DNA of 40,244 bases. Origin: a virus. The notes under the pieces are model-generated. The model was not told the DNA's origin, searched no databases, and saw only the letters and a program-made list of their open reading frames with translations. Below, piece by piece: positions 4,254 to 40,214 of this stretch. The stretch's first letter is position 1. The number at the start of each line of letters is the position of its first letter. The stretch spans positions 1 to 40,244 of the IMG/VR virus record IMGVR_UViG_3300046747_000214. One strand, given 5' to 3'. The position numbers and the translations under genes were made by a program.

Positions 4254-5383
4254 CCTGCCTCCTATGCAAAGCCGGCACGCGGCTGGTCCTCTACCTGGGC
4301 GAAACGCCGCTGGCTAACGAGCTGCCCACGAACGCGCAGCCGGACAAGTTCCCCTTGCGCCTCGTCCAGTGCAGCAAGTGCCAGCACCTACAGATTGACC
4401 ACCATGTTTCTCCTGAACGGCTGTATCGCTCCTACATCTACGTTTCGAACACGTCGCAGGCGAACCGCGACTACTTCAAAGCCTACGCCGCCGCCCTCGT
4501 GGCCAGATTCCAACCTGGATTCGTGGTGGACGTCGGAGGTAATGACGGACTCTTTGCCGGTCAATTCGCGTGCAAAGCGCTCGTAGTCGACCCTGCGGCG
4601 AATATCCCGTGTGCTACGCCTAGGCTGGCCGAGTTCTTCGACGAGAACGTGGCGGGCGACATCGCGCGTGAGAGCGGCAAGGCCGACCTCATCACCTGCA
4701 ATAACGCCTTCGCCCATAACGCGGACCTGGTGCCCATTCTGCGCGGCGTGAAGGCGCTCCTGGCCGACAAGGGGACGTTTATCTTCGAGGTCGCCTACGC
4801 GATGCCCCTTCTGCGACGGGGCCTTTTCGACCTCATCTATCATGAGCACATCCACCACTGGACCCTGACGGCGGCTATCCCGTTCCTGCGTGAACATGGC
4901 CTCGACGTGTACGACGCGGAAGAGGTCCCGACCCACGGGGGAAGCCTGCGCGTCTACGCCAGGCACGTGCAGAAGGGCCATCGCCCCAAGTCGGAGCACA
5001 TGCCGGCCATCCTGCGGGCCGAGGCGCTGGACCTGGACGACGCCGTGCGCCAGTTCCACGGCATCGTGGAACAGGAGCGGCACGTAGCGCGGCAGGTCAT
5101 TCAGACGACCCCGGGCACCATCGGCCTGCTGGGCTACCCCGCCAAGGCGTGCACGCTCCTGAGCTATTGGGGCATCGGGAACGACATCCAGCACGTGTTC
5201 GATGACAACGAGCACAAGATAGGGAAGCGCACCCACTTCGGCCACGTCATCCAGCCGACCAGCGCGATTGCCACGGTCAAGCCGGACCGCATGCTGGTCA
5301 CGTCGTGGAACTACGCCGAGGAGCTAATCCGGCGCTTCCCAGGGCAAACGCTGGTCATCCCCCACCCATTCCGGACGCAATGA
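4250..5383 (+). CDS. Zinc-binding sugar C-methyltransferase (NovU/TylCIII-like)
   Basis: A 377-residue three-part methyltransferase. The N terminus carries two Cys pairs, TCLLCK (residues 2-7) and VQCSKCQHL (near 43-51), the zinc-binding domain of sugar C-methyltransferases. The central SAM domain shows VVDVGGNDGLFAGQF near 89-103 and later FEVAYAMPLLRRGLFDLIYHE, including the conserved YHEH segment that carries catalytic residues in this family. The C-terminal domain has the typical IGLLGYPAKACTLLSYWGI and a second Rossmann-like end. Family members C-methylate NDP-4-keto-6-deoxy sugars. GTG 4250 overlaps the cupin stop as GTGA; the dehydratase gene begins in its stop codon. Confidence 0.88.
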   Translation: MTCLLCKAGTRLVLYLGETPLANELPTNAQPDKFPLRLVQCSKCQHLQIDHHVSPERLYRSYIYVSNTSQANRDYFKAYAAALVARFQPGFVVDVGGNDGLFAGQFACKALVVDPAANIPCATPRLAEFFDENVAGDIARESGKADLITCNNAFAHNADLVPILRGVKALLADKGTFIFEVAYAMPLLRRGLFDLIYHEHIHHWTLTAAIPFLREHGLDVYDAEEVPTHGGSLRVYARHVQKGHRPKSEHMPAILRAEALDLDDAVRQFHGIVEQERHVARQVIQTTPGTIGLLGYPAKACTLLSYWGIGNDIQHVFDDNEHKIGKRTHFGHVIQPTSAIATVKPDRMLVTSWNYAEELIRRFPGQTLVIPHPFRTQ

Positions 5384-6333
5384 AGACGGTACTCTGCACA
5401 GGTACTTTAGGCTTTATATTTTCGAACTTCATCCGGCACGCCGTCACGCTACCAGGCTACCGCTGGGTAGGCGTCGACAAGGCGGCCCGTCAGTACAACC
5501 TGGCCAACTGGTTCGAGCACCCTGACTATCGCTTCTATCTCGCCGACATCGCCGACGCCCACACCATCGGCACCATCTTCGAACGCGAGCGCCCGGACAT
5601 CGTCATCGGCGGCGCGGCGGAGTCGTTCGTGGATGACAGCATTACCGACATCATGCCTTTTCTGCGCACCAACGTGGTGGGCACTCAGACGCTGGTGAAC
5701 GCGTGCCTGAAGTACGGCGCACGCTACGTCCACGTCTCGACGGACGAGGTTTACGGCCAGCAGCTAGCTAAGGACGCGATTGGCTGGACTGAGAACGTCC
5801 CCATGGCCCCACGTAACCCATACGCAGCTAGCAAGGCGTGCGCAGAGCATGTAGTGACGGCTGCCCACGAGACGCACGGCCTTCAGTATCAAATCACTCG
5901 TAGCTGCAACGTATACGGGCCCCGTCAGAAGAAGGAAAACCTTATTCCGCGTATCATCTATTCGCTCTTGCACAATGAACCAGTCCCCATTCATGGCAAC
6001 GGGCTCAATTTCCGACAGTACATTCATGTGGACGACGCCATTACCGCGCTGATGTGTGTCATTGAGCGTGGGGCTATAAATACCACGTACAACGTTGGCG
6101 GTGAGGACATCCTGACGAACCTGGAGATGGTGGCTCGAATTTACGAGCACATTGGGATGCAGTCGCCAAACATCTCGCACATCGAGGACAGGAAGGCCCA
6201 CGACTTTGGCTACAAGGTTTCGAGCAATCGCCTCAGGGAGCTGGGCTGGGCGCCGGAAGTGGAATTCTATAGCGGCATTCACTCCACCATCGCCCATTAC
6301 CGAAACAGGGGGAGCTTTGCCTACGCCGCGTAG
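5380..6333 (+). CDS. NAD-dependent NDP-sugar 4,6-dehydratase (RmlB-like, extended SDR)
   Basis: A 317-residue extended short-chain dehydrogenase. The nucleotide-binding glycine motif is degenerate (TGTLGFIFSNF near residues 7-17 instead of GGAGFIGS). Catalytic residues are present: STDEVYG at 120-126, whose Asp-Glu pair is the dehydration signature of RmlB-type enzymes, and YAASK at 148-152 giving Tyr and Lys. The substrate loop reads ESFVDDSI where family members have ESHVDRSI. Product would be an NDP-4-keto-6-deoxyhexose, the substrate for the cupin and C-methyltransferase just upstream. Start ATG 5380 overlaps the previous stop. The 5,900-6,130 stretch has lower GC than flanking genes. Confidence 0.87.
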   Translation: MKTVLCTGTLGFIFSNFIRHAVTLPGYRWVGVDKAARQYNLANWFEHPDYRFYLADIADAHTIGTIFERERPDIVIGGAAESFVDDSITDIMPFLRTNVVGTQTLVNACLKYGARYVHVSTDEVYGQQLAKDAIGWTENVPMAPRNPYAASKACAEHVVTAAHETHGLQYQITRSCNVYGPRQKKENLIPRIIYSLLHNEPVPIHGNGLNFRQYIHVDDAITALMCVIERGAINTTYNVGGEDILTNLEMVARIYEHIGMQSPNISHIEDRKAHDFGYKVSSNRLRELGWAPEVEFYSGIHSTIAHYRNRGSFAYAA

Positions 6334-17906: not shown

Positions 17907-20900
17907 ATGGCATTTGTTCAAAAGCAAATGGTGCCGGTGCAGTTTGGCGGCGGTATCGACACCAAGGTAGACCCCAAGCAGCTCCAATCTGGACAGCTGT
18001 TGGCGCTTCAGAATGGCCAGTTCTCCAAGACTGGGCAAATCAATAAGCGCTACGGCTACGACCTCCTTGGAATGAACATCGAAGGCGGCGGCACCATTTC
18101 CGCTGGCGTTGAACTCGCGGTGTTCAAAAACGAGCTGGTCCTATTCGACGGCACCAACGTCTTCTCCTACCTCCCAGCCACTGACAAATGGAGCAACCGC
18201 GGCACAGCGATTAGCATCATCACCGAGGACCACGAAATCATCAGGCGCCAGGATGCCCAGCAGCTCAACCCGGATATGTCCTACCTCAATGGTATTGAGG
18301 TGTACGCTTGGGAGGATTCGCGCGGTGGCGTTTATTACAGTGTTGTTGATAGTACTTCTGGTGCAGTGGTGGTCGCAGGGGCGCAGCTAGCCGCGGCGTC
18401 CGCCCAGCAGCCCAAGTGCGTCACGTTCGGCGGTAGCATCTACATCTTCTACGCCTCGGGGACGAGCCTCTATTACCAGCAGGTAGGGCCGAGCAATCCA
18501 TCGGTGGTCGGTGCCGCTATCGCTGTGGCCACGGACGGGTACAACGGAACCAACGGCTTCCCGTTCGACGTCACGGCGTTCACCGCCAGCGACGGAACCG
18601 CGCACCTGGCGTGGCTGTACCTGTCGAGCGCGTCCACCAGCTCCTGGGTGCTTGGCAGCGTCGACATCAACAATGTTCAGGCGGCAAACGTCACCATCAA
18701 CTCCAACGGTGGGCAGACCATCACCGGCGGTAAGCACGGGGCCGCGAGCGTCCTGGTCGACAGCCTGGGAACCGCTTGGTGCAGCTGGTCGTCGGGTGGC
18801 GCGGTGTACACGGTCCCCGTGGCCAGCTACGGGGCCGGAGGCACGACGCTAGGCACCCAGGCCACGGTGTTCGCGGCGAACCAATACAACGTGTTGGCGG
18901 CCATTGAGGGCTACACCGCCGGCCAGCTGCTTCTGTTCTGCGAGAAATACAACGCCACCAGTTACCTAGAGCAAACGGACTACGTCACGGTAACGACGGC
19001 CGGCGCCGTCAGCGCCACCCGGACGCTCTACAGCGTGGGGCTGGCGAGCAAGCCGTGGCGCTACGGGTCTAAGGTGTTCGTCAACACGTCGTATTCGTCG
19101 ACGCTGCAGGCCACCGACTTTGCCTGGTACGTGCCGGCGACAGGTAGCGCCACCGTAGTGGCCAAGATGACGCCGAGCGTGGGGGGCGGCATCGCCACCC
19201 TGGGCATGTGCTCGGAGACGGTCAACGTCACGACTGGCGTCTACAAGTTTGCCAACCTGGTCGCTGGGAAGATTCTGTCGGAGGCAAATACCATCTTCAC
19301 CATCCTGGGCGTCAACTCGACCAAGATGGTTCACGCGCCCACGGACAACTTCATCAACACGGTACAGGACAATACGCTGCTCATCGTCGGCGGCATCCTG
19401 CAGGGGTACGACGGGGTTTCCGTCACCGAGCTTGGCTTCCACCTCTACCCCGAAAACATCGCGCTGGCGGCGGCAGGGTCGGACGGCAGCCTTGGCGCCG
19501 GGTCTTACCAGTACGTCGTTCAATACGAGTGGACCGACAACCTGGGGCAAATCTACCGGTCGGCGCCCAGCGTGCGCGCCACCGTCACTACCACGGCAGC
19601 CCAGCACGTCACGGTCACCGGGTACAACCTGACCCTGACGAGCAAGCCGGCGGCAAGCATCTCGATTGTCATCTACCGCACGCAGGCCAACGGGACGAAC
19701 CTCTACCGGGTCACGTCACTCCTGGCGCCGCTGGCCAACTCGGGGACGGCGGGCCAGTGGACCTACACCGACAAGGCCAGCGACAGCACCATCTCCAGCA
19801 ATGACCTGAACTACACAGCAGGCGGCGCCCTCAGCAACATTGCGCCACCCGCTAACGCGTTTCTGACCACCTACAACAACCGCGTCTTCTTGGGCGGCCT
19901 GAGTGACAAGAATCTCCTGTGGTACTCGCAGACGGTTGTGGACAACAGCAACGCCAACACCATCCCCCCGCAGTTCTGCGCCGAGCTAACCATGGGCTGC
20001 GACCCACGGGGCGGCGACATCACCGCGCTGGGGCTCCTCAACCAAACGCTCATCATCTTCAAGAACTCGGAAATCTTCGCCGCATCTGGCAACGGGCCAG
20101 ACGCCAACGGCGCCAATAGCGACTACGGAGACCCCCAGCTCATCTCCAGCGACGCGGGTTGCATCAACCCGAATACAGTTGTCGTCACCGCCGCCGGCCT
20201 GTTCTTCCAATCCCAGCGAGGCATCTACCTACTAGACCAGTCCCTAAACGCCAGCTACATCGGCGCACCGGTAGAGGACATCGTCAACGGAATGACAATC
20301 ACGTCTTCCGTCGAGAGTCCCAAGGACGGGTTGATTTTGTTCTGCTCGAGCAGCGGCACCGCCGTAGTGTACGACTACTACCACCAGCAGTGGTCAACCT
20401 GGTCTAACCACTACGCCAGCGACGTCGTTATCTACCAAAACGCCATCTGCTTCGTGACCCCCGCGGGCCAGGTGTACAAGCAGAACCGCTCGAGCTTCAC
20501 CGACGCCGGCTCCCCCGTCCTTCTGTCGTTCACGCTGCCCAACCTAAGCTTTGCGGGCATCCAGGGCTACCAGCGGGTCTTCCGCTGCTTCATCCTGGGG
20601 ACCTACAAGGGGCCGCATACGCTGACGGTCAACGTCGCCTACGACTTCAGCGACTCCTACACCCAATCCGCTTCTGTGGTGCCGCAGGCGGGCTCGCAAT
20701 GGGGCAGTGACCCGGCGTGGGGCTGGTCCTCGCCGTGGGGCGCCGGCTACCAGCTGTACGAGTATCGAATCGACTTCAGTACCCAAAAGTGCACGTCAAT
20801 TCGACTGCAGGTTTCGGACGCTCAAAGCAGCAACTACAATGAGGGTTACGCTATTTCGAGTATAGTATTCGAGGTGGGGCAACTGCCTGGCGGCAACCGT

Positions 20901-20933
20901 CTACCGTCCACAAGCATCGTTGGAGCGCAGTGA
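17907..20933 (+). CDS. Large tail protein, nozzle-like beta-propeller (gp12-type)
   Basis: A 1008-residue protein, the largest of the genome. It opens with VQFGGGIDTKVDPKQLQSGQ and later KINKRYGYD-like text (INKRYGYDLLG), the usual start of podovirus tail tube/nozzle proteins. Repeated beta-propeller-like blades follow (for example NGIEVYAWEDSRGGVYYSVV and LFFQSQRGIYLLDQS), with an Ig-like segment near residues 545-640. The C terminus is beta-rich (YEYRIDFSTQKCTSIRLQVS). Such proteins close the tail channel below the adaptor ring. Start ATG 17907 is 2 bases after the previous stop. Confidence 0.75.
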   Translation: MAFVQKQMVPVQFGGGIDTKVDPKQLQSGQLLALQNGQFSKTGQINKRYGYDLLGMNIEGGGTISAGVELAVFKNELVLFDGTNVFSYLPATDKWSNRGTAISIITEDHEIIRRQDAQQLNPDMSYLNGIEVYAWEDSRGGVYYSVVDSTSGAVVVAGAQLAAASAQQPKCVTFGGSIYIFYASGTSLYYQQVGPSNPSVVGAAIAVATDGYNGTNGFPFDVTAFTASDGTAHLAWLYLSSASTSSWVLGSVDINNVQAANVTINSNGGQTITGGKHGAASVLVDSLGTAWCSWSSGGAVYTVPVASYGAGGTTLGTQATVFAANQYNVLAAIEGYTAGQLLLFCEKYNATSYLEQTDYVTVTTAGAVSATRTLYSVGLASKPWRYGSKVFVNTSYSSTLQATDFAWYVPATGSATVVAKMTPSVGGGIATLGMCSETVNVTTGVYKFANLVAGKILSEANTIFTILGVNSTKMVHAPTDNFINTVQDNTLLIVGGILQGYDGVSVTELGFHLYPENIALAAAGSDGSLGAGSYQYVVQYEWTDNLGQIYRSAPSVRATVTTTAAQHVTVTGYNLTLTSKPAASISIVIYRTQANGTNLYRVTSLLAPLANSGTAGQWTYTDKASDSTISSNDLNYTAGGALSNIAPPANAFLTTYNNRVFLGGLSDKNLLWYSQTVVDNSNANTIPPQFCAELTMGCDPRGGDITALGLLNQTLIIFKNSEIFAASGNGPDANGANSDYGDPQLISSDAGCINPNTVVVTAAGLFFQSQRGIYLLDQSLNASYIGAPVEDIVNGMTITSSVESPKDGLILFCSSSGTAVVYDYYHQQWSTWSNHYASDVVIYQNAICFVTPAGQVYKQNRSSFTDAGSPVLLSFTLPNLSFAGIQGYQRVFRCFILGTYKGPHTLTVNVAYDFSDSYTQSASVVPQAGSQWGSDPAWGWSSPWGAGYQLYEYRIDFSTQKCTSIRLQVSDAQSSNYNEGYAISSIVFEVGQLPGGNRLPSTSIVGAQ

Positions 20934-22003
20934 TGGAAATCAAAAACCCCACTCAGTCCACTCCAGGCGACGAGGCAGTAGCCAATGCCCCTCCCGGCCC
21001 CGAGATGCTTGGCGACACCCGCGGGCCGGAGTCGTACCAACAGTGGTTCGACACGTTCAACAAGGACCCTAACCGCCAGCAGAACATGGCGGCCATTGGC
21101 GGCATGCAGGCCCCGCCCATGCAGGGCTATGAGGCTGGCGGCTCTTCGCTGGCCGGTCTGACGACACTGGCGCCGGTGCAGAACGCCCACGCGGCCACCG
21201 TCGATACTGGGCAATCACAGAACCTTATGGGCGGACAAGTCGCCAACATCAACGCGCTGAACCAGCAGGCAAACGGCCAGGGCCCATCGGTGGCCGCAGA
21301 GGTCGCCAAGCAACAGGCAGAGCAGGGACAAAAGGCCCAAATGGCCGCCCTCGGCAGCCAGCGCGGCGCGGCCAACAGCGCGCTAGGCATGCGGGCTGCA
21401 CAGGACTCGGCGGCGCAGCAGCACCAGGCCGGCGCACAGAACGCCGTACTTGGCCGTGCGCAAGAAGCCCAGGCCGCACGCCAGCAGCTTACGGGTGCGC
21501 TTGGCGGCGCCACACAACAGGCGCAGCAGGGCGCCCAGGCGCAAGCTCAGCTTAGCCAGCAGGCGGGAATGCAGAACGCCCAGGCCGCGAACGCCTCGAC
21601 CCTTCAGCAGGGCCAGATGGACGTACAGACTAAGACGGCGAATTTGCAAGCCCAGCTTCAGGCGGGGCAAATCAACGCCAACGAATACAACGCCTACGTG
21701 CAAGCGCTGATGGCCCAGAATAGCAACGACTGGGGCGCGCAGATGAACGCGCAAGGGCAACTCATGTCGAACAATGCCCAGCTACAGGGCATTGCAGCCG
21801 GCGTACAGACCAATGCCGCCAACAATCAAATGGGCCTGGTCGGGGCCTCCATTGCGGGTGGTGCGGGGGTGGGCGCTGGTGCTCTTACCGCAGCATCTGA
21901 CAGGGGACTAAAAACGGACGTTCGGCCGGCCACCCGTGGAATCAAGGATTTTCTCTCGCAATACGGAGAGAGCGCGACGGCTAAGTTCGCGCTCATGGTG
22001 TAA
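20933..22003 (+). CDS. Ala/Gln-rich internal virion protein with S74-like tail motif
   Basis: A 356-residue protein with a Pro/Gly N terminus, then about 200 residues of Gln/Ala-rich helix (for example AQQHQAGAQNAVLGRAQEAQ), a glycine-rich hydrophobic stretch (GLVGASIAGGAGVGAGAL), and a C-terminal SDRGLKTDVRPATRGIKDFL. The last motif resembles the start of the S74 intramolecular-chaperone domain (consensus SDRRLKTDI), but the chain stops about 35 residues later, so the domain is only a remnant or a tag. Composition fits a protein ejected into the host with the DNA. ATG 20933 is preferred over GTG 20930 from GGAG spacing. Confidence 0.65.
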   Translation: MEIKNPTQSTPGDEAVANAPPGPEMLGDTRGPESYQQWFDTFNKDPNRQQNMAAIGGMQAPPMQGYEAGGSSLAGLTTLAPVQNAHAATVDTGQSQNLMGGQVANINALNQQANGQGPSVAAEVAKQQAEQGQKAQMAALGSQRGAANSALGMRAAQDSAAQQHQAGAQNAVLGRAQEAQAARQQLTGALGGATQQAQQGAQAQAQLSQQAGMQNAQAANASTLQQGQMDVQTKTANLQAQLQAGQINANEYNAYVQALMAQNSNDWGAQMNAQGQLMSNNAQLQGIAAGVQTNAANNQMGLVGASIAGGAGVGAGALTAASDRGLKTDVRPATRGIKDFLSQYGESATAKFALMV

Positions 22004-22788
22004 TGGGCATTTCCCTCTCACAGGCTGTCTTTGGCGGGCTGGCGATTGCCGGAACGACGGCTGCCGCAATCGCAACCGCCGGCGCCCTCGCGCCTGCAGC
22101 TGCGGCGGCAGACGCCGCGGTCGTGGGCGGCGCGGAGGGGGTTGCCGCAGGTACCGGTGCGCTGGCCGGTAGCGCAGCGGCAGCTGCGCCGGTTGCCGCG
22201 GCTGCGCCGTTGGCTGAGGCCGCCGCGCCGCTCGCAGGGGCGGCGGCTGAACCCATGGTGGACGCAGGGGTGGCCGCTGGCGCTGAAGGCGCATCGTCCG
22301 CCGTCGCTGCCCCGATTGCCGCCCCCGCCGCTACGGAGACGGCGGGCGCCACCGCGGGCACGGGTGCCACGGCCAATGCCTCTGTCAACGCGGCGGCCGG
22401 TGCTGCCGAGTCTGGCATCGATACGGGAAAGGCAATCGCTAGCGGGGTAAAGACTGGGCAGGGGGTCTACGACACGGTCAAGAAGACGCAGGCCGGGTTT
22501 CAGAACCAGCCAGCGCCGAGCATGGGCGGCCCCGCCCCCGCGGGCCCCTCGGGGCCACAGCTTCAAACGCCCAACCTCACGGGGGGTGGAACGTACGGCG
22601 CCATATTTGGCCAGCCACCCGGAGGCGCACAGGGTCCACAGCCGATGTCGCTGCCGCCGCTGACTATTCAGCCCATTACGCAGCCGCCTCCGCAGATGTC
22701 TGACCGTACGAAAAAGACGGAAGTGAAGTCCGCGGAGCGCTCCATCAAGGAATTCCTAACCCAGGTGTACAGCAATGCCGCTCTATAA
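22003..22788 (+). CDS. Ala-rich membrane-active internal virion protein with S74-like tail motif
   Basis: A 261-residue protein with more than a third alanine in the first 150 residues, long hydrophobic Ala/Gly/Val stretches (VFGGLAIAGTTAAAIATAGA at 9-28), then a Pro/Gly-rich part and a C-terminal SDRTKKTEVKSAERSIKEFL. The alanine-rich amphipathic N-terminal half suggests membrane insertion during DNA ejection. The C-terminal motif parallels that of the preceding and following proteins. It overlaps the next gene by 14 bases. Functional call is by composition and context. Confidence 0.6.
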   Translation: MGISLSQAVFGGLAIAGTTAAAIATAGALAPAAAAADAAVVGGAEGVAAGTGALAGSAAAAAPVAAAAPLAEAAAPLAGAAAEPMVDAGVAAGAEGASSAVAAPIAAPAATETAGATAGTGATANASVNAAAGAAESGIDTGKAIASGVKTGQGVYDTVKKTQAGFQNQPAPSMGGPAPAGPSGPQLQTPNLTGGGTYGAIFGQPPGGAQGPQPMSLPPLTIQPITQPPPQMSDRTKKTEVKSAERSIKEFLTQVYSNAAL

Positions 22789-24007
22789 CTCGCTGACGTC
22801 CATGTCGCAGCTGGGCCTGGCGCCGAAGCCGTACAGTACTGCGGTGCCGGGGGTGGCCCCGCCGCCGCCCACCGGCGCGACGATGAGCGTCCCCCAGCCG
22901 ATGCCCGTGCCGCCTCCCACTGGCGCCACCATGACCGCGCCCAAGCCTCCGCCGCCGCCCACCGGCGCGACAATGACCGTACCCACGCAGCCACGAACCA
23001 GCACCACGATGGAGAGGACCGCAACGCCTCCGCCAACTGGCGCAGCGATGACCGCGCCCCCCCAGCCGCAGTACGCGCCGCCGCCCATGGGCGGAAACAT
23101 GGCCATGCAGCCGGCCCCCAGGCCTTCCCAGATGGGGCTCACCCCTCAACGTGGCGCCATGGGCGGTATGCACGATTGGCGACCGCCCCCGCAGCAGCCG
23201 ATGATGGCGCCGCCGCAGATGCCCCAGAAGTCCGTGGAAGAGCAGGCGCTCAACGGCGGGGGCGTCGACAATAAGCAGCAGATATCCAACTTCATGACCG
23301 CGCTGCACAACGCCAACTCCGGCGGAAATAACAGCTTCATGCAGGGGCAGGACGGCCAGCCGCCCCCGCAAGCCGGACCGCTGGTGAGCAACGTGGGCCC
23401 TCAGGCTACGCAGCAGTTCAACGCAGGCCCTGCCCCGCGCCCCATGGTCGGCGCCGAGGCGCAGAAGATTGGCATGTTCAATAGCGGCATGTTCGGCCAG
23501 CCCCAACAAGTCCAGGACGAGCAACAGAAAATCGGCATGTTGAACAGCGGCATGCTCGGGCCCGCCCGCGACGTCTCCGCCGAGCAACAGAAAATCGGCA
23601 TGCTGAACAGTGGGGCGCTTGGCAAGCCTGTCGTGGATGGCACCTACGGCGGCGCAGGTGCGGCGGGTATGCAAGCGATGATGAGCGACGAGACGCAGAA
23701 GGAGAAGGTCAGCGACGCCACGGGCAAGCTCACCAACTTCATGAGCGCCATCGGTGCCCACGAGTACAAGTACAAGTCCCCCGAGCTTGACGGCCAAGGC
23801 ACGTACACGACCCCCATGGCCCAGGAATTACAGAAGACGGAGCTTGGCAAACAGGCCGTTATCCAAACCCCCCGCGGGTTGATGGTCGACTATGGCCGTC
23901 TGGGCGGCGTCAACCTGGCCGCAGTGAGCGTCGTGCACCGCGAGCAACAGAGGCTGGCGGCGCAGGTAGAGCGGCTCCGGGGTGAGATGAAGCGGAGGAA
24001 GGGCTAA
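22775..24007 (+). CDS. Pro-rich repeat protein with full S74-like C-terminal domain
   Basis: A 410-residue protein. Residues 30-95 contain four copies of PPPTGATM(T/S)xP-type units. Residues about 230-292 contain three 21-residue repeats built on QKIGMLNSGMLG. From MSDETQKEKVSDATGKLTNF (near 303) to the end is an S74-like domain with HEYKYKSPEL, MAQELQKTELGKQAVI and GLMVDYGRLGGVNLAAVSV, the pattern of chaperone-type C-terminal domains on phage tail and ejection proteins. It ends in a charged coiled coil. Whether it self-cleaves is unknown. The start lies inside the previous gene. Confidence 0.65.
   Translation: MPLYNSLTSMSQLGLAPKPYSTAVPGVAPPPPTGATMSVPQPMPVPPPTGATMTAPKPPPPPTGATMTVPTQPRTSTTMERTATPPPTGAAMTAPPQPQYAPPPMGGNMAMQPAPRPSQMGLTPQRGAMGGMHDWRPPPQQPMMAPPQMPQKSVEEQALNGGGVDNKQQISNFMTALHNANSGGNNSFMQGQDGQPPPQAGPLVSNVGPQATQQFNAGPAPRPMVGAEAQKIGMFNSGMFGQPQQVQDEQQKIGMLNSGMLGPARDVSAEQQKIGMLNSGALGKPVVDGTYGGAGAAGMQAMMSDETQKEKVSDATGKLTNFMSAIGAHEYKYKSPELDGQGTYTTPMAQELQKTELGKQAVIQTPRGLMVDYGRLGGVNLAAVSVVHREQQRLAAQVERLRGEMKRRKG
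22862..23060 (+). repeat. Four-copy PPPTGATM coding repeat
   Basis: DNA repeats of the form CCGCC(G/T)CCCAC(C/T)GGCGC encode four imperfect PPPTGATM units at irregular spacing (residues 30-40, 46-56, 60-70 and 85-95 of the host protein). Such proline-rich units form extended linkers and can gain or lose copies by recombination. Confidence 0.8.
23462..23650 (+). repeat. Three tandem 63-bp coding repeats
   Basis: Copies begin at 23462, 23525 and 23588, exactly 63 bases apart, each encoding a 21-residue unit that opens QKIGM(F/L)NSG(M/A)(F/L)G and closes with a variable linker. The exact in-frame period points to duplication within the gene. Confidence 0.85.
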
Positions 24008-35403: not shown

Positions 35404-35774
35404 GTGACCTAGAGCGCACCATGACGGCGGCGGACGTGGCGCAGGTGCTGCAGTGCTCACGCTCGCACGCCTACGAGCTGCTCTCGCAGATACCCGCGAC
35501 CAAGAAGCTGGGCGGCATGCTGCGTATCCGTGTTCGTGACTTCTGGGTTTGGTTTGAGAAAGGGCAATCTCCGTGCGGCTCTATCAACGAAGGAAGGCCA
35601 GCGGCGCAGTCGTCTGGTGGGCATCGTGGACGGAGGGCGGCAGGACCATCCGCCGCTCGACGCGATGCACGACGCGAGCAGCCGCCGAGCTCGTCACCGC
35701 CCGATGGGAGCGCGAACGAATCGACCCCGTATACGCGGCCTCGAACGAAGCCACGCTCAACAGCGAGTGGGTGA
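35400..35774 (+). CDS. Excisionase-like small helix-turn-helix protein
   Basis: A 124-residue frame. Only the first 55 or so residues look conserved: MTAADVAQVLQCSRSHAYEL is a MerR/HTH_17-type DNA-binding start, and KKLGGMLRIRVRDFWVWFEK the wing and helix typical of excisionase-like proteins. The remainder (Pro/Arg/Ser-rich) overlaps the integrase start by 202 bases in another frame and may be a by-product of that overlap. Context just upstream of the integrase supports an excisionase. GTG start overlaps the DnaA-like gene stop. Confidence 0.65.
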   Translation: MSDLERTMTAADVAQVLQCSRSHAYELLSQIPATKKLGGMLRIRVRDFWVWFEKGQSPCGSINEGRPAAQSSGGHRGRRAAGPSAARRDARREQPPSSSPPDGSANESTPYTRPRTKPRSTASG

Positions 35775-36625
35775 CCTTCATCGCAGAGTGTCGGGCGGAC
35801 CGCCTGGCCGAGGGCACCCTGCTCATGTACCGGCAGAAGGCCGGCAATCTGATGCGCCTACTTGGTGCGGAGACCAGGCTGGCCGCACTGGATGCCGCGA
35901 TGGTCGGCGGCTACGTGAACGCCCGCCGCGAAGAAGGCGCCGTTGACTCCACCATCTACAAAGAATGGATCACGCTCCGGGGTATCCTGTCGAGCGCGCG
36001 CCATCGTCGCAGGTTCGCTCTTGACCCTGCCGTTCTGAAACCCCCTCGGCTTGTGCCGAACTACGTCCCCCGAGAGCGCTGGCTGTCACGGGAGGAGGCA
36101 GCGAAGCTCCTGGGCAAGCTCTCCCCTTCCCGGCGTGAGGTCGTGGCGTTCGTCATCAGCACCGGGGCCAGGCGCAAGGAGTGGAACCGAGCCATTGCCG
36201 GCGACATCGACCGCAAGGCTTGGACGGTTCACCTGCATGGCACCAAGACCGACGCCAGCGACAGGACCATCCCGGTTCCGTCGCACTTCCGGCAGTACCT
36301 CACCGCCATCGAGCCGCCGTTTCGCTCATGGGGCAACGCGCGTCGTGACCTGGCTGTCGCATGCAAGGCGCTCGGCATGAAGCCGGTCACCTGGAACGAC
36401 CTTCGGCGAACGTTCGCCAGCCAACTCGTGGAGGACGGAGTGGCTCCCCACATCGTCGCCAAGCTGCTCGGCCACAAGAGCACCGCGATGGTCGACCGCG
36501 TCTACAACCGGGCCCGAATGCTCCAGCTTGGAGAGCAGATGGAGGCCCAAATCCGTGACCCACGGGTGAACCAACGGAAGCGTACTCGCAAGGGCTCTGA
36601 CGGACGCAAAGGACATCAAAAGTGA
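35573..36625 (+). CDS. int: Tyrosine recombinase integrase
   Basis: A 350-residue phage integrase. The N terminus (SGAVVWWASWTEGGRTIRRS) is the arm-binding-type domain; the core-binding SAM-like domain is near residues 65-165. Catalytic motifs: Arg in STGARRKEW (near 197-205), Lys in GTKTDASDRTIPV, NDLRRTFASQLV where family members usually have HDLRHT, the His in LLGHKST, and the tyrosine in VDRVYNR near residue 311. The Asn-for-His and second Arg-for-His in box II are unusual but tolerated in some members. It lies upstream of a tRNA-derived attP. GTG 35573 start. Confidence 0.92.
   Translation: MRLYQRRKASGAVVWWASWTEGGRTIRRSTRCTTRAAAELVTARWERERIDPVYAASNEATLNSEWVTFIAECRADRLAEGTLLMYRQKAGNLMRLLGAETRLAALDAAMVGGYVNARREEGAVDSTIYKEWITLRGILSSARHRRRFALDPAVLKPPRLVPNYVPRERWLSREEAAKLLGKLSPSRREVVAFVISTGARRKEWNRAIAGDIDRKAWTVHLHGTKTDASDRTIPVPSHFRQYLTAIEPPFRSWGNARRDLAVACKALGMKPVTWNDLRRTFASQLVEDGVAPHIVAKLLGHKSTAMVDRVYNRARMLQLGEQMEAQIRDPRVNQRKRTRKGSDGRKGHQK
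36553..36573. repeat. Left arm-type inverted repeat near attP
   Basis: The 21-bp element CCGTGA(C)CCACGGGTGAACCA lies within the last codons of the integrase gene. It differs from the element at 36762-36782 by one base, and contains an internal CCGTG...CACGG inverted repeat plus a TGACCCA/TGAACCA tandem. The two copies flank the tRNA-like core, the layout of integrase arm-binding sites. Confidence 0.65.
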
Positions 36626-38030: not shown

Positions 38031-40214
38031 CTGAAAGCTCCCGTCTCTGTCTGCATCATCTGCGACGATGATCCGCACCTGGCCCAAACCGTGGCCAGCG
38101 TCGAGCCGTTCGTTGAGCAGGTCGTCACCCTAAGCCCCAAGAGCGTCCCCGGCGTCTTTGACGCTGAGGGGCGCATCCAGGACTTCTCAGCAGCGCGCAA
38201 CGCCAGCTTCGAGCTGGCCACGCAGCCCTGGGTCATGTGGCTGGACAGTGACGACCTGTTTGACGGTGGGGAGAAGCTCCATGAGCTGTGCAAGGCGCCG
38301 CAGGGCACCTGCTACCTGTTCCCGTACGAGTACGCCTACGACCATCTTGGGCGATGTGTCGTGCGGCAGTACCGCGAGCGCCTGTTCTCACCGCGCGGGG
38401 CTATGGCCTGGAAGTACCCGGTTCATGAGGTTCTCGTGCCTGTGGGCCAACCACTCAACATGGTGCTCTCTGAGGCGTGCGGAGTCCGCCACCGTCGCCA
38501 GTTCAATGCCAAGCCCCAGGAGCCGCAGCGTAACCTGCGCATCCTCAAAAGCTGGATGGCGCAGAACCCGGACGACGTCCGGAACCAATTCTACATAGGC
38601 CTGGAGTACGCCAATGTTGGGGAGCTCGATGAAGCTGTAACCTGGCTAACCAAGTACGTCGGCAACACGGGCTGGCCCGACGAGAAGGCGCAGGCGCTGT
38701 TCCGTCTGGTGCAGATCCACGAGCAGCGCAGGCAATACGCCAAGGCGCTGGACTGGGCCTTCGAGGCGCTGAAGGTCTGCGACTGGTTTGAGAGCTGCTA
38801 CGCCATCTGCCGGCAGTTCTACTACCTGAAGAACTGGGAGCGCTGCGTTCACTACGCACGCATGGCGCTGAACGCGCCGCCCACCAAGACGGTGCTCTTC
38901 ACCGACGAGTCCGCGCGGCATGAGCTCCACGTCTATCTGAACGTGGCGCTGAACCAGCTGGGCAGGACCCAGGAGGCATACGAAAGCACGCTGGAGGGGC
39001 TGAAGGGGAACCCGGAGCATCCGCTGTTGCGGCATAACCGGGTGGAGTACGAGAAAGCTTTAGGGAAGGGCGACCCCGCCGACTCCTCGTCACAGGCGGA
39101 AGCCGCCACCTGCCTCCACTCGCCGGCCAGTGGCCCTAAAGAGGCCGGCAGCTACAACCCCAAGTGCCTGGACATCGTGTTCGTCACGGCGTCGTGGGAG
39201 CGATGGGACCCCGAGAGCATCAAGGCTACCGGCATCGGCGGCTCAGAGACGATGCTGGCCAACATGGCCAAGCATCTTGCTGCGCTGGGGCACAAGGTCA
39301 CGGTCTACGCAGACCCGACGAAGGAAGGAACGTACGATGGCGCGGAGTGGAAAAACAAAGAGCGATTCCAGGGCGTCAGATGCGACGTGCTCGTCGTGTC
39401 TCGACAAGCACCGTACGTGGACGAGGCTGGCCACGCGTCCTTGCGCCTGCTGTGGTGCCATGACGTTACGGCGATTGGAGCCAGTCCCTCCCGCCTGCTC
39501 CGCTATGACCGCCTTGTTGCACTATCTCAATGGCACAAAGACTACCTCGTCCGCGCCCACGACATCAGCCCAGACCAGGTCATCGTCACGCGCAACGGCA
39601 TCGACCTCGACAGGTTCAAAGCGTCGCCGCCGCGCAACCCGCACAAGATAGTCAACAGCTCATCGCCTGACCGCTCGTGGCCAGTCCTGCTGGAATGCTT
39701 CAAACGCATTAGGCAGCAGGTGCCGCAGGCCGAGCTTCACCTGTTCTACGGCTTCGACAATTGGAAGAAGGTCGCGGCGAATGACCCGTTGGCCATGGAC
39801 TCGATTCGGCTCTTGGAGGAGCAGGTCAAGGCGCCTGGCGTGCACTACCACGGGCGGGTTAGCCAGGAACGGCTTACGCAGGAGTTCCTGACGGCCAAGG
39901 TATGGGGATATTCAACATTCTTCACTGAAACAAGTTGCATAACAGCCATGGAGGCTCAAGCTGCAGGACTGCATATCGTCACGAGCAGTATCGCAGCGCT
40001 GCCAGAGACGCTTGCGGGGTATCCGAAGGCCACCCTGATTGACGGTGAGTGGACGTCTCCGGAGTACCAGCGAAAGTTCGTCGCTGCCGTGGTGGGGGCC
40101 CTCAATGCGCCAGTGCAGTTTGGTCAGCGCGTCGAAGATAAGGTGGCCTGGGCCCGAGAGATTCTGGCCATGTACGCGACAGAGGTGCACGACGAAGATT
40201 GGCGGCTGCCGTGA
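38031..40214 (+). CDS. Bifunctional glycosyltransferase: GT2 - TPR - GT4 fusion, CTG start
   Basis: A 727-residue protein. Residues 1-100 are a GT-A family 2 domain (VSVCIICDDDPHLAQTVASV, then FSAARNASFELATQPWVMWL) with the metal-binding DxD in LDSDD near 71-75. Residues about 180-330 are TPR-like helices (FYIGLEYANVGELDEAVTWL). From about 380, LDIVFVTASWERWDPESIKA, GIGGSETMLANMAKHLAALG and SSSPDRSWPVLLECFKRI form a GT4 GT-B domain. An in-frame TGA at 38025 excludes an upstream start, and the first conserved strand begins before the first ATG/GTG. CTG 38031 lies 6 bases after GGAGAGG, so CTG initiation is the best fit. It continues through the circular join to base 105. Confidence 0.85.
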   Translation: MKAPVSVCIICDDDPHLAQTVASVEPFVEQVVTLSPKSVPGVFDAEGRIQDFSAARNASFELATQPWVMWLDSDDLFDGGEKLHELCKAPQGTCYLFPYEYAYDHLGRCVVRQYRERLFSPRGAMAWKYPVHEVLVPVGQPLNMVLSEACGVRHRRQFNAKPQEPQRNLRILKSWMAQNPDDVRNQFYIGLEYANVGELDEAVTWLTKYVGNTGWPDEKAQALFRLVQIHEQRRQYAKALDWAFEALKVCDWFESCYAICRQFYYLKNWERCVHYARMALNAPPTKTVLFTDESARHELHVYLNVALNQLGRTQEAYESTLEGLKGNPEHPLLRHNRVEYEKALGKGDPADSSSQAEAATCLHSPASGPKEAGSYNPKCLDIVFVTASWERWDPESIKATGIGGSETMLANMAKHLAALGHKVTVYADPTKEGTYDGAEWKNKERFQGVRCDVLVVSRQAPYVDEAGHASLRLLWCHDVTAIGASPSRLLRYDRLVALSQWHKDYLVRAHDISPDQVIVTRNGIDLDRFKASPPRNPHKIVNSSSPDRSWPVLLECFKRIRQQVPQAELHLFYGFDNWKKVAANDPLAMDSIRLLEEQVKAPGVHYHGRVSQERLTQEFLTAKVWGYSTFFTETSCITAMEAQAAGLHIVTSSIAALPETLAGYPKATLIDGEWTSPEYQRKFVAAVVGALNAPVQFGQRVEDKVAWAREILAMYATEVHDEDWRLP

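Follow-up and report, generated by a model that had tools for sequence, protein, structure and literature searches.

The stretch of DNA that we analyzed, referred to here as the window, comprises 40,244 bases and is a metagenomic virus record from IMG/VR. It carries a block of genes (Table 1) that starts directly downstream of a gene for a tail-tube-like protein. This gene is kept at the same place in 26 of 28 loci, and its protein was the marker for our tree. The genes for the three proteins that we call P1, P2 and P3 come first in the block, followed by those for P4 and P5. The block genes overlap as TAATG or ATGA, or have a few bases between them, so coupled expression is likely, and we believe that they are probably translationally coupled. 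The window also has genes for an integrase, a nucleotide-sugar epimerase and two glycosyltransferases (942-2072, 5305-6330, 35573-36622 and 38091-40211), which suggests a temperate phage that modifies the surface sugars of its host.

Table 1. Genes and features of the block, with positions in the window.
Feature	Position	Strand	Description	Basis
Tail-tube-like protein	17907-20933	+	1008 aa	PHROG 3287 and 511, "virion structural / internal virion protein"
P1	20930-22003	+	357 aa; Gln/Ala-rich, probable internal virion protein with short S74 tail at its end	ORF; homology
P1 hydrophobic segment	21830-21886	+	Gly-rich, residues 301-319	Most hydrophobic 19-mer of P1
P1 tail	21896-22000	+	Ser323 (21896-21898), Lys328 (21911-21913), then alpha1-like helix	
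P2	22003-22788	+	261 aa; Ala-rich N-terminus, Pro-rich linker, short S74 tail	ORF
P2 tail	22699-22785	+	Ser233 (22699-22701), Lys238 (22714-22716), then alpha1-like helix	
P3	22775-24007	+	410 aa; Pro/Gln/Met-rich body and the sole complete S74/ICA domain	ORF
P3 internal repeats	23450-23638	+	[A/D]ExQKIGM at residues 226, 247 and 268 (P3 residues 226-288)	
P3 complete S74/ICA domain	23684-24004	+	Ser304 (23684-23686), Lys309 (23699-23701), Tyr331 and Tyr333, long C-terminal helix	
P4	24007-25740	+	577 aa; conserved next protein of the putative internal-virion block, without tail	
P5	25737-28061	+	774 aa; conserved large protein of the putative internal-virion block, without tail	

An earlier note on this DNA had reported an S74-like motif in three consecutive virion proteins. 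We found the motif in all three, at the C-terminus of P1 and P2 and starting at 23684 in P3, although the span of 22696-24007 originally assigned to it leaves the first tail (21896-22000) outside. The P1 tail has 35 residues, SDRGLKTDVRPATRGIKDFLSQYGESATAKFALMV, and opens with SDRGLKTDVRPATRGIKDFL; the P2 tail has 29 residues, SDRTKKTEVKSAERSIKEFLTQVYSNAAL, and opens with SDRTKKTEVKSAERSIKEFL. In P3, SDETQKEKVSDATGKLTNFM is followed by about 87 more residues. When the P1 tail was used as a query over the whole 40-kb record, it matched the P2 tail with an E-value of 1.2e-4. The hydrophobic segment of P1 stops about three residues before the tag, and its position is the same in all of the P1 orthologues that we examined.

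Only P3 has the rest of the domain, as had been proposed. PF13884 (Peptidase_S74) matched P3 residues 304-354 with an E-value of 1.1e-4 and 18.4 bits in the search of the record, and with 14.3 bits in hmmscan. In both searches the bit score is below the curated cut-off of 22. Orthologues in seven contigs from related viruses (L004, L005, L007, L010, L011, L013 and L018) pass this cut-off. An AlphaFold2 model of the window's P3 domain, made with 22 aligned sequences, had a pLDDT of 91.7. With this model the top Foldseek match was the ICA domain of MyRF (7dc3, E-value 6.5e-5, TM 0.63), and VIA-align placed the four known ICA structures on top, with Z of 8.4 (7dc3), 7.1, 6.7 and 6.4 and the next at 2.9. 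Judged by its predicted structure, the P3 domain is a genuine S74/ICA fold. Our first AlphaFold model, of the L010 domain and from a thin alignment, had a pLDDT of 72 and its Foldseek result was not significant.

The S74-like label also agrees with the position of the catalytic residues. When the L010 domain was modelled separately, its residue 1 fell on the catalytic Ser911 of endoNF, so Ser1 and Lys6 correspond to the published Ser-Lys dyad, S911/K916 in endoNF and S587/K592 in MyRF (PMC8326128). Ser304 and Lys309 of P3 are five apart at the start of the domain, as in the published dyads, and are invariant in 22 relatives. The dyad Ser and Lys are absolutely conserved in published alignments, and processing depends on the residue after the Ser (PMC3742443). 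The single-chain P3 model also has a predicted C-terminal helix of 37 residues.

Two further features of P3 caught our eye. The core of the domain, SPMAQELEKTxxGKSxVxxTPxGK (about 23813-23890 in the window, and in relatives), resembles the C-terminal part of GreA/GreB (2p4v with an E-value of 0.0025; Pfam GreA_GreB with 0.048 in L011), which is probably a chance resemblance. The internal repeats of P3, three of 21 residues each (GAEAQKIGMFNSGMF / QDEQQKIGMLNSGML / SAEQQKIGMLNSGAL), are reminiscent of the SDETQK start of the S74 domain, and L004 has QDESQKIGM and QDEAQKMAL immediately upstream of its domain. The P3 repeats may be additional, degenerate copies of the motif.

The P1 and P2 tails are homologous to the first 25-27 or so residues of the complete C-terminal domain of P3. 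Alignment of the tails with S74 had been suggested as a check, and in a profile-profile comparison of ten tails with ten full domains the two proved to be related, with a probability of 96% and an E-value of 2.7e-9. The alignment is ungapped, with columns 1-27 on columns 1-27, and none of 150 column shuffles reached its score (42.9, with 15.0 for the best shuffle). Each tail has the catalytic Ser-(Asp)-x3-Lys spacing and helix alpha1 and then stops, ending 5-15 residues past the FL that closes alpha1. Because alpha1 spans domain residues 13-22 in the P3 model, each tail holds the dyad segment plus this helix, a point that the earlier note did not make. The beta strands, the tyrosine pair and alpha4 of a complete domain are missing, so we regard the tails as partial copies and not as S74 domains themselves. 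On inspection, none of the reading frames around the ends of the P1 and P2 tails continues an S74 domain past the stops. A degenerate DNA pattern for the tail recovered two contigs that we already knew and, as a new full-domain locus, L045; a fourth match was apparently due to chance.

Scans of viral contigs yielded about 35 distinct related contigs. Their gene order, which is largely shared, is a tail-tube-like protein (~1000 aa), one or more S74-bearing proteins, a protein of ~500-600 aa, one of ~800-1000 aa, one of ~115 aa and a fibre, and the position of the block between the tail-tube gene and the fibre genes is kept in about 25 loci. The S74-bearing genes occur in three states. In the first, of which L007 and L010 are examples, a P1-type body is followed by the only S74 domain, at the C-terminus of a single protein. 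In the second, the SDxxxK motif occurs two or three times in one polypeptide, which has one full domain. L018, L059, L060 and L073 belong here, and there are two copies in L005, L030 and L023. The L018 protein is 934 aa long with motifs at 435, 681 and 820, and it is collinear with P1, P2 and P3 taken together; its last part is homologous to P3, and its N-terminal part, like that of the L010 protein, to P1. In the third state the genes are separate, as in the window, L004, L011 (with three tagged genes), L024/L026 and L028. Proteins homologous to P1 and with the same tail occur in L004, L028, L024 and L011, and P2 orthologues, which we assigned by tail and position, in L004, L011, L024 and L028. 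P3 is 44% identical to its L004 orthologue. In the tree of the tail-tube protein the phages with separate genes form one clade with an SH-aLRT of 100, and the L018 contig is the sister of this clade with a weak support of 71. Searches of P1, P3, P5 and their relatives with tblastn against 50,697 phage records gave no match, and the full domain alone gave only weak matches. Scanning with the domain produced no confirmed relative in 84,980 species genomes of bacteria and archaea.

Several smaller observations came from these contigs. Besides its C-terminal tag, the P2 orthologue of L004 (L004 7031-8014) contains another one internally, SDERRKTAVQSGTEDIKRFL at residue 115. Several of the one-protein or fused relatives carry, by eye, a small gene for a GNAT-like acetyltransferase, placed after the tail-tube gene and before the S74-bearing gene (for example L007 5035-5397, L010 5101-5445 and L060 5645-5977), and the split clade is without this gene. 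The P2 bodies are otherwise poorly alignable but have in common, again by eye, a short FxxI[FY]xxPP-like motif. It is found in the window's P2 and in the orthologues at L028 4190-4990, L011 4251-4730 and 4727-5320, and L024 4904-5293, in the forms TYGAIFGQPP, GFNNIFQGVPP, AFSSIYNYPQ, TFHQIYSAPP and IFDKLYGSSP. This is possibly a second docking motif.

Within the split clade the tags are kept without exception. In five related phages of this clade, the C-terminal tag is present in 11 of 11 genes that lie after the tail-tube gene and before the full-domain gene, compared with 0 of 201 other genes of the compared loci, and the tag pattern occurred in 8 of 42,400 shuffled tails. Four residues, Ser, Asp, Lys and Leu20, do not vary in any of the 12 tails. 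The pattern for copies inside fused polypeptides had S, D and K fixed by design, so only the split-clade tails, for which every gene of the block was inspected, count for this invariance. Between the window and L004, the P2 tail is 62% identical and the P2 body 28%, and the P3 domain is 86% identical and the P3 body 50%. For P1 there is no difference (tail 66%, body 68%). The L024/L026 pair is too close to add to this comparison. The idea of shared tags in the earlier note gains from this retention and from the conservation of the P2 tail, which far exceeds that of the P2 body. As far as sequence comparison can tell, the split arrangement is old and maintained, and the tails are probably functional tags.

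The tails share 12.9-13.7 of 24 residues within a genome and 9.8-10.7 between genomes. Pairing the tails with the full domain of their own genome was the best of 24 permutations, and the second of 24 once similar residues were merged; this likeness is suggestive of co-evolution or gene conversion. As a sequence class, the tails have Arg at position 3 and Leu at position 5, and the full copies have Glu at position 3.

The "DNA ejection protein" family phrog_4287 matches the single-protein relatives (L010 with an E-value of 2.4e-8) and does not match P1, P2 or P3 of the window. Its likeness to L010, L007 and L013 spans both the body and the S74 region, and is to the single-protein state only. 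From the gene order and this match in relatives, we infer that P1-P3 are probably internal virion (ejection) proteins of a short-tailed phage and not fibres, and P1 and P2 would then probably be carried inside the virus head. The label of virion proteins used earlier likewise comes from gene order and relatives, and the position of the genes among those for internal virion proteins had not been pointed out.

Known systems resemble the window in part. PF13884 structures include those of endoNF (3gw6), the GA-1 neck appendage (3gud), the T5 L-shaped fibre (4uw8) and MyRF (7dc3). The P3 domain is like these in its fold (Z 6.4-8.4), dyad spacing, Tyr pair and C-terminal helix. It differs in that P3 is probably an internal virion protein and shows no recognisable beta-helix stalk upstream of the domain (the region is Pro/Gln/Met-rich by inspection), and in that two neighbors of P3 carry just the first ~25 residues of the domain. 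That several proteins of one phage can have full S74 domains is already known. In the T5-like phages DT57C and DT571/2, the fibres LtfA and LtfB both end in PF13884 with a conserved cleavage motif (PMC4728585), but each of them has its own predicted PF13884 chaperone domain, whereas the window has short tags and one full copy. An S74 protein in an internal-virion block is also known, and the cultured example is Sinorhizobium phage phiM5. Its protein 27 (ARV77528.1, "putative tailspike protein/chaperone of endosialidase") lies directly before three internal virion proteins, and all four proteins were detected in the particle proteome. The S74 domain is on a protein adjoining internal virion proteins, as it probably is in the window, but in phiM5 there is one protein with one S74 domain and its neighbors are without short tails. 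The body of protein 27 has no detectable relation to P1. In the open-access literature we came across no account of a phage in which several proteins have partial S74 tails and one has a complete copy, and no paper that names both an ejection protein and the chaperone of endosialidase.

We give nearly an even chance to the explanation that an ancestral S74 ejection protein was split into tagged genes, and that the tails assemble with the P3 ICA domain, with cleavage possible. The ancestor would have been a single protein with a P1-type body and then a C-terminal S74/ICA domain for trimerisation and self-cleavage. The first ~25 residues of this domain, with the catalytic Ser-Asp-x3-Lys and alpha1, would have been copied into the junctions between modules. 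The polypeptide would then have been split into the probably coupled genes, with a copy at the end of each and the complete domain on the last. The homology, the fold, the single clade, the retention in 11 of 11 genes and the constraint on the P2 tail all argue for a split origin and functional tags. Also in favor are the dyad spacing, the invariant Ser, Asp and Lys of the tails, the single-protein and fused relatives, the overlap of the genes, the ejection-protein position and, as a suggestive point, the likeness of the tails to the full domain of their own genome. Counting against this explanation, the fused-to-split direction rests on the branch with a support of 71, the P1 tail is conserved no better than the P1 body, and the sign of co-evolution becomes weaker once similar residues are merged.

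In the split state, the P3 ICA domain would trimerise through alpha4, and the P1 and P2 tails would use alpha1 to dock on it. The alpha4 coiled coil of MyRF is surrounded by a head-to-tail collar of three alpha1 helices, and the trimer is needed for cleavage (PMC8326128). Docking would co-assemble three aggregation-prone proteins ahead of packaging. A possible last step would be cleavage at each tail, completed in trans by the P3 core. The tails keep the Ser and Lys but are without the rest of the active site, so cleavage in trans with the P3 core is possible. Two findings count against docking. P3 has its own alpha1, which the tails would need to displace or add to, and the difference in sequence class between tails (Arg at position 3, Leu at position 5) and full copies (Glu at position 3) makes another partner conceivable. 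One folding domain may serve several partners, as the earlier note imagined, and this idea fits all of our findings. It is doubtful, but conceivable, that this amounts to split autoprocessing. In that case a trimeric S74/ICA domain would act in trans as the shared chaperone and maturation protease for two or three further internal virion proteins that bear only the Ser-Lys segment and the docking helix, and these would all be released at the same time, once assembly has finished.

The main rival explanation treats the tails as C-terminal assembly signals for a partner other than the P3 domain (the portal, the tail-tube protein, P4 or P5), derived from S74 but now ordinary targeting helices. 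At positions 3, 5 and 14 the tails do form a class apart from the full copies, they stop at the extreme C-terminus only 5-15 residues past alpha1, and the P2 tails have the ending FLxx[VIL]Y in common. However, the catalytic Ser, Asp and Lys are invariant in the tails and a plain helix would not need them, and the likeness of the tails to their own genome's full domain argues weakly in the same direction. We consider such signals an unlikely explanation.

It seems to us still less probable that the motif is a processing site, where S74 would cut fused polypeptides at each SD and the tails of the split phages would still be trimmed, with trimming as their function. This would explain the fused relatives well, with the dyad at every junction of L018, L059, L060 and L073 as well as in all tails, and with the split and fused arrangements collinear. 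The isolated tails, however, are without the Tyr pair, the strands and alpha4, and cleavage of MyRF needs the trimer. Separate genes need no such site, yet they retain both the site and the alpha1 helix.

We disfavor, as very improbable, the view that duplicated or split S74 genes left the tails as decaying remnants with no present function. The earlier note had offered duplication remnants as one option, and on origin it was right, as the split relatives and the fused ones with several copies point to duplication and fission. As an explanation of the tails today it fares poorly, since 11 of 11 genes keep the tail over deep divergence with Ser, Asp, Lys and Leu invariant, and the P2 tail is 62% identical against 28% for the body. 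Chance, low complexity or a translated nucleotide element for coupling to the next gene we rejected as next to impossible on the shuffles (0 of 150) and the other genes (0 of 201); the genes do overlap and are probably coupled, but the next start is well downstream of the conserved residues, and the codons differ between P1 and P2.

S74/ICA domains have been described as intramolecular chaperones on fibres, on spikes and in MyRF. Here the domain would be on internal virion proteins, and its catalytic start is spread, in the form of C-terminal tags, over several proteins with one complete domain between them. The single, fused multi-copy and split relatives form a natural series from one ejection protein to three or four. 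If the tags dock on the P3 domain or are cut in trans, as a split ejection protein with assembling tails would have it, then "intramolecular" would not be a fixed property of the family, and the gathering of aggregation-prone podovirus ejection proteins would be testable with small soluble pieces.
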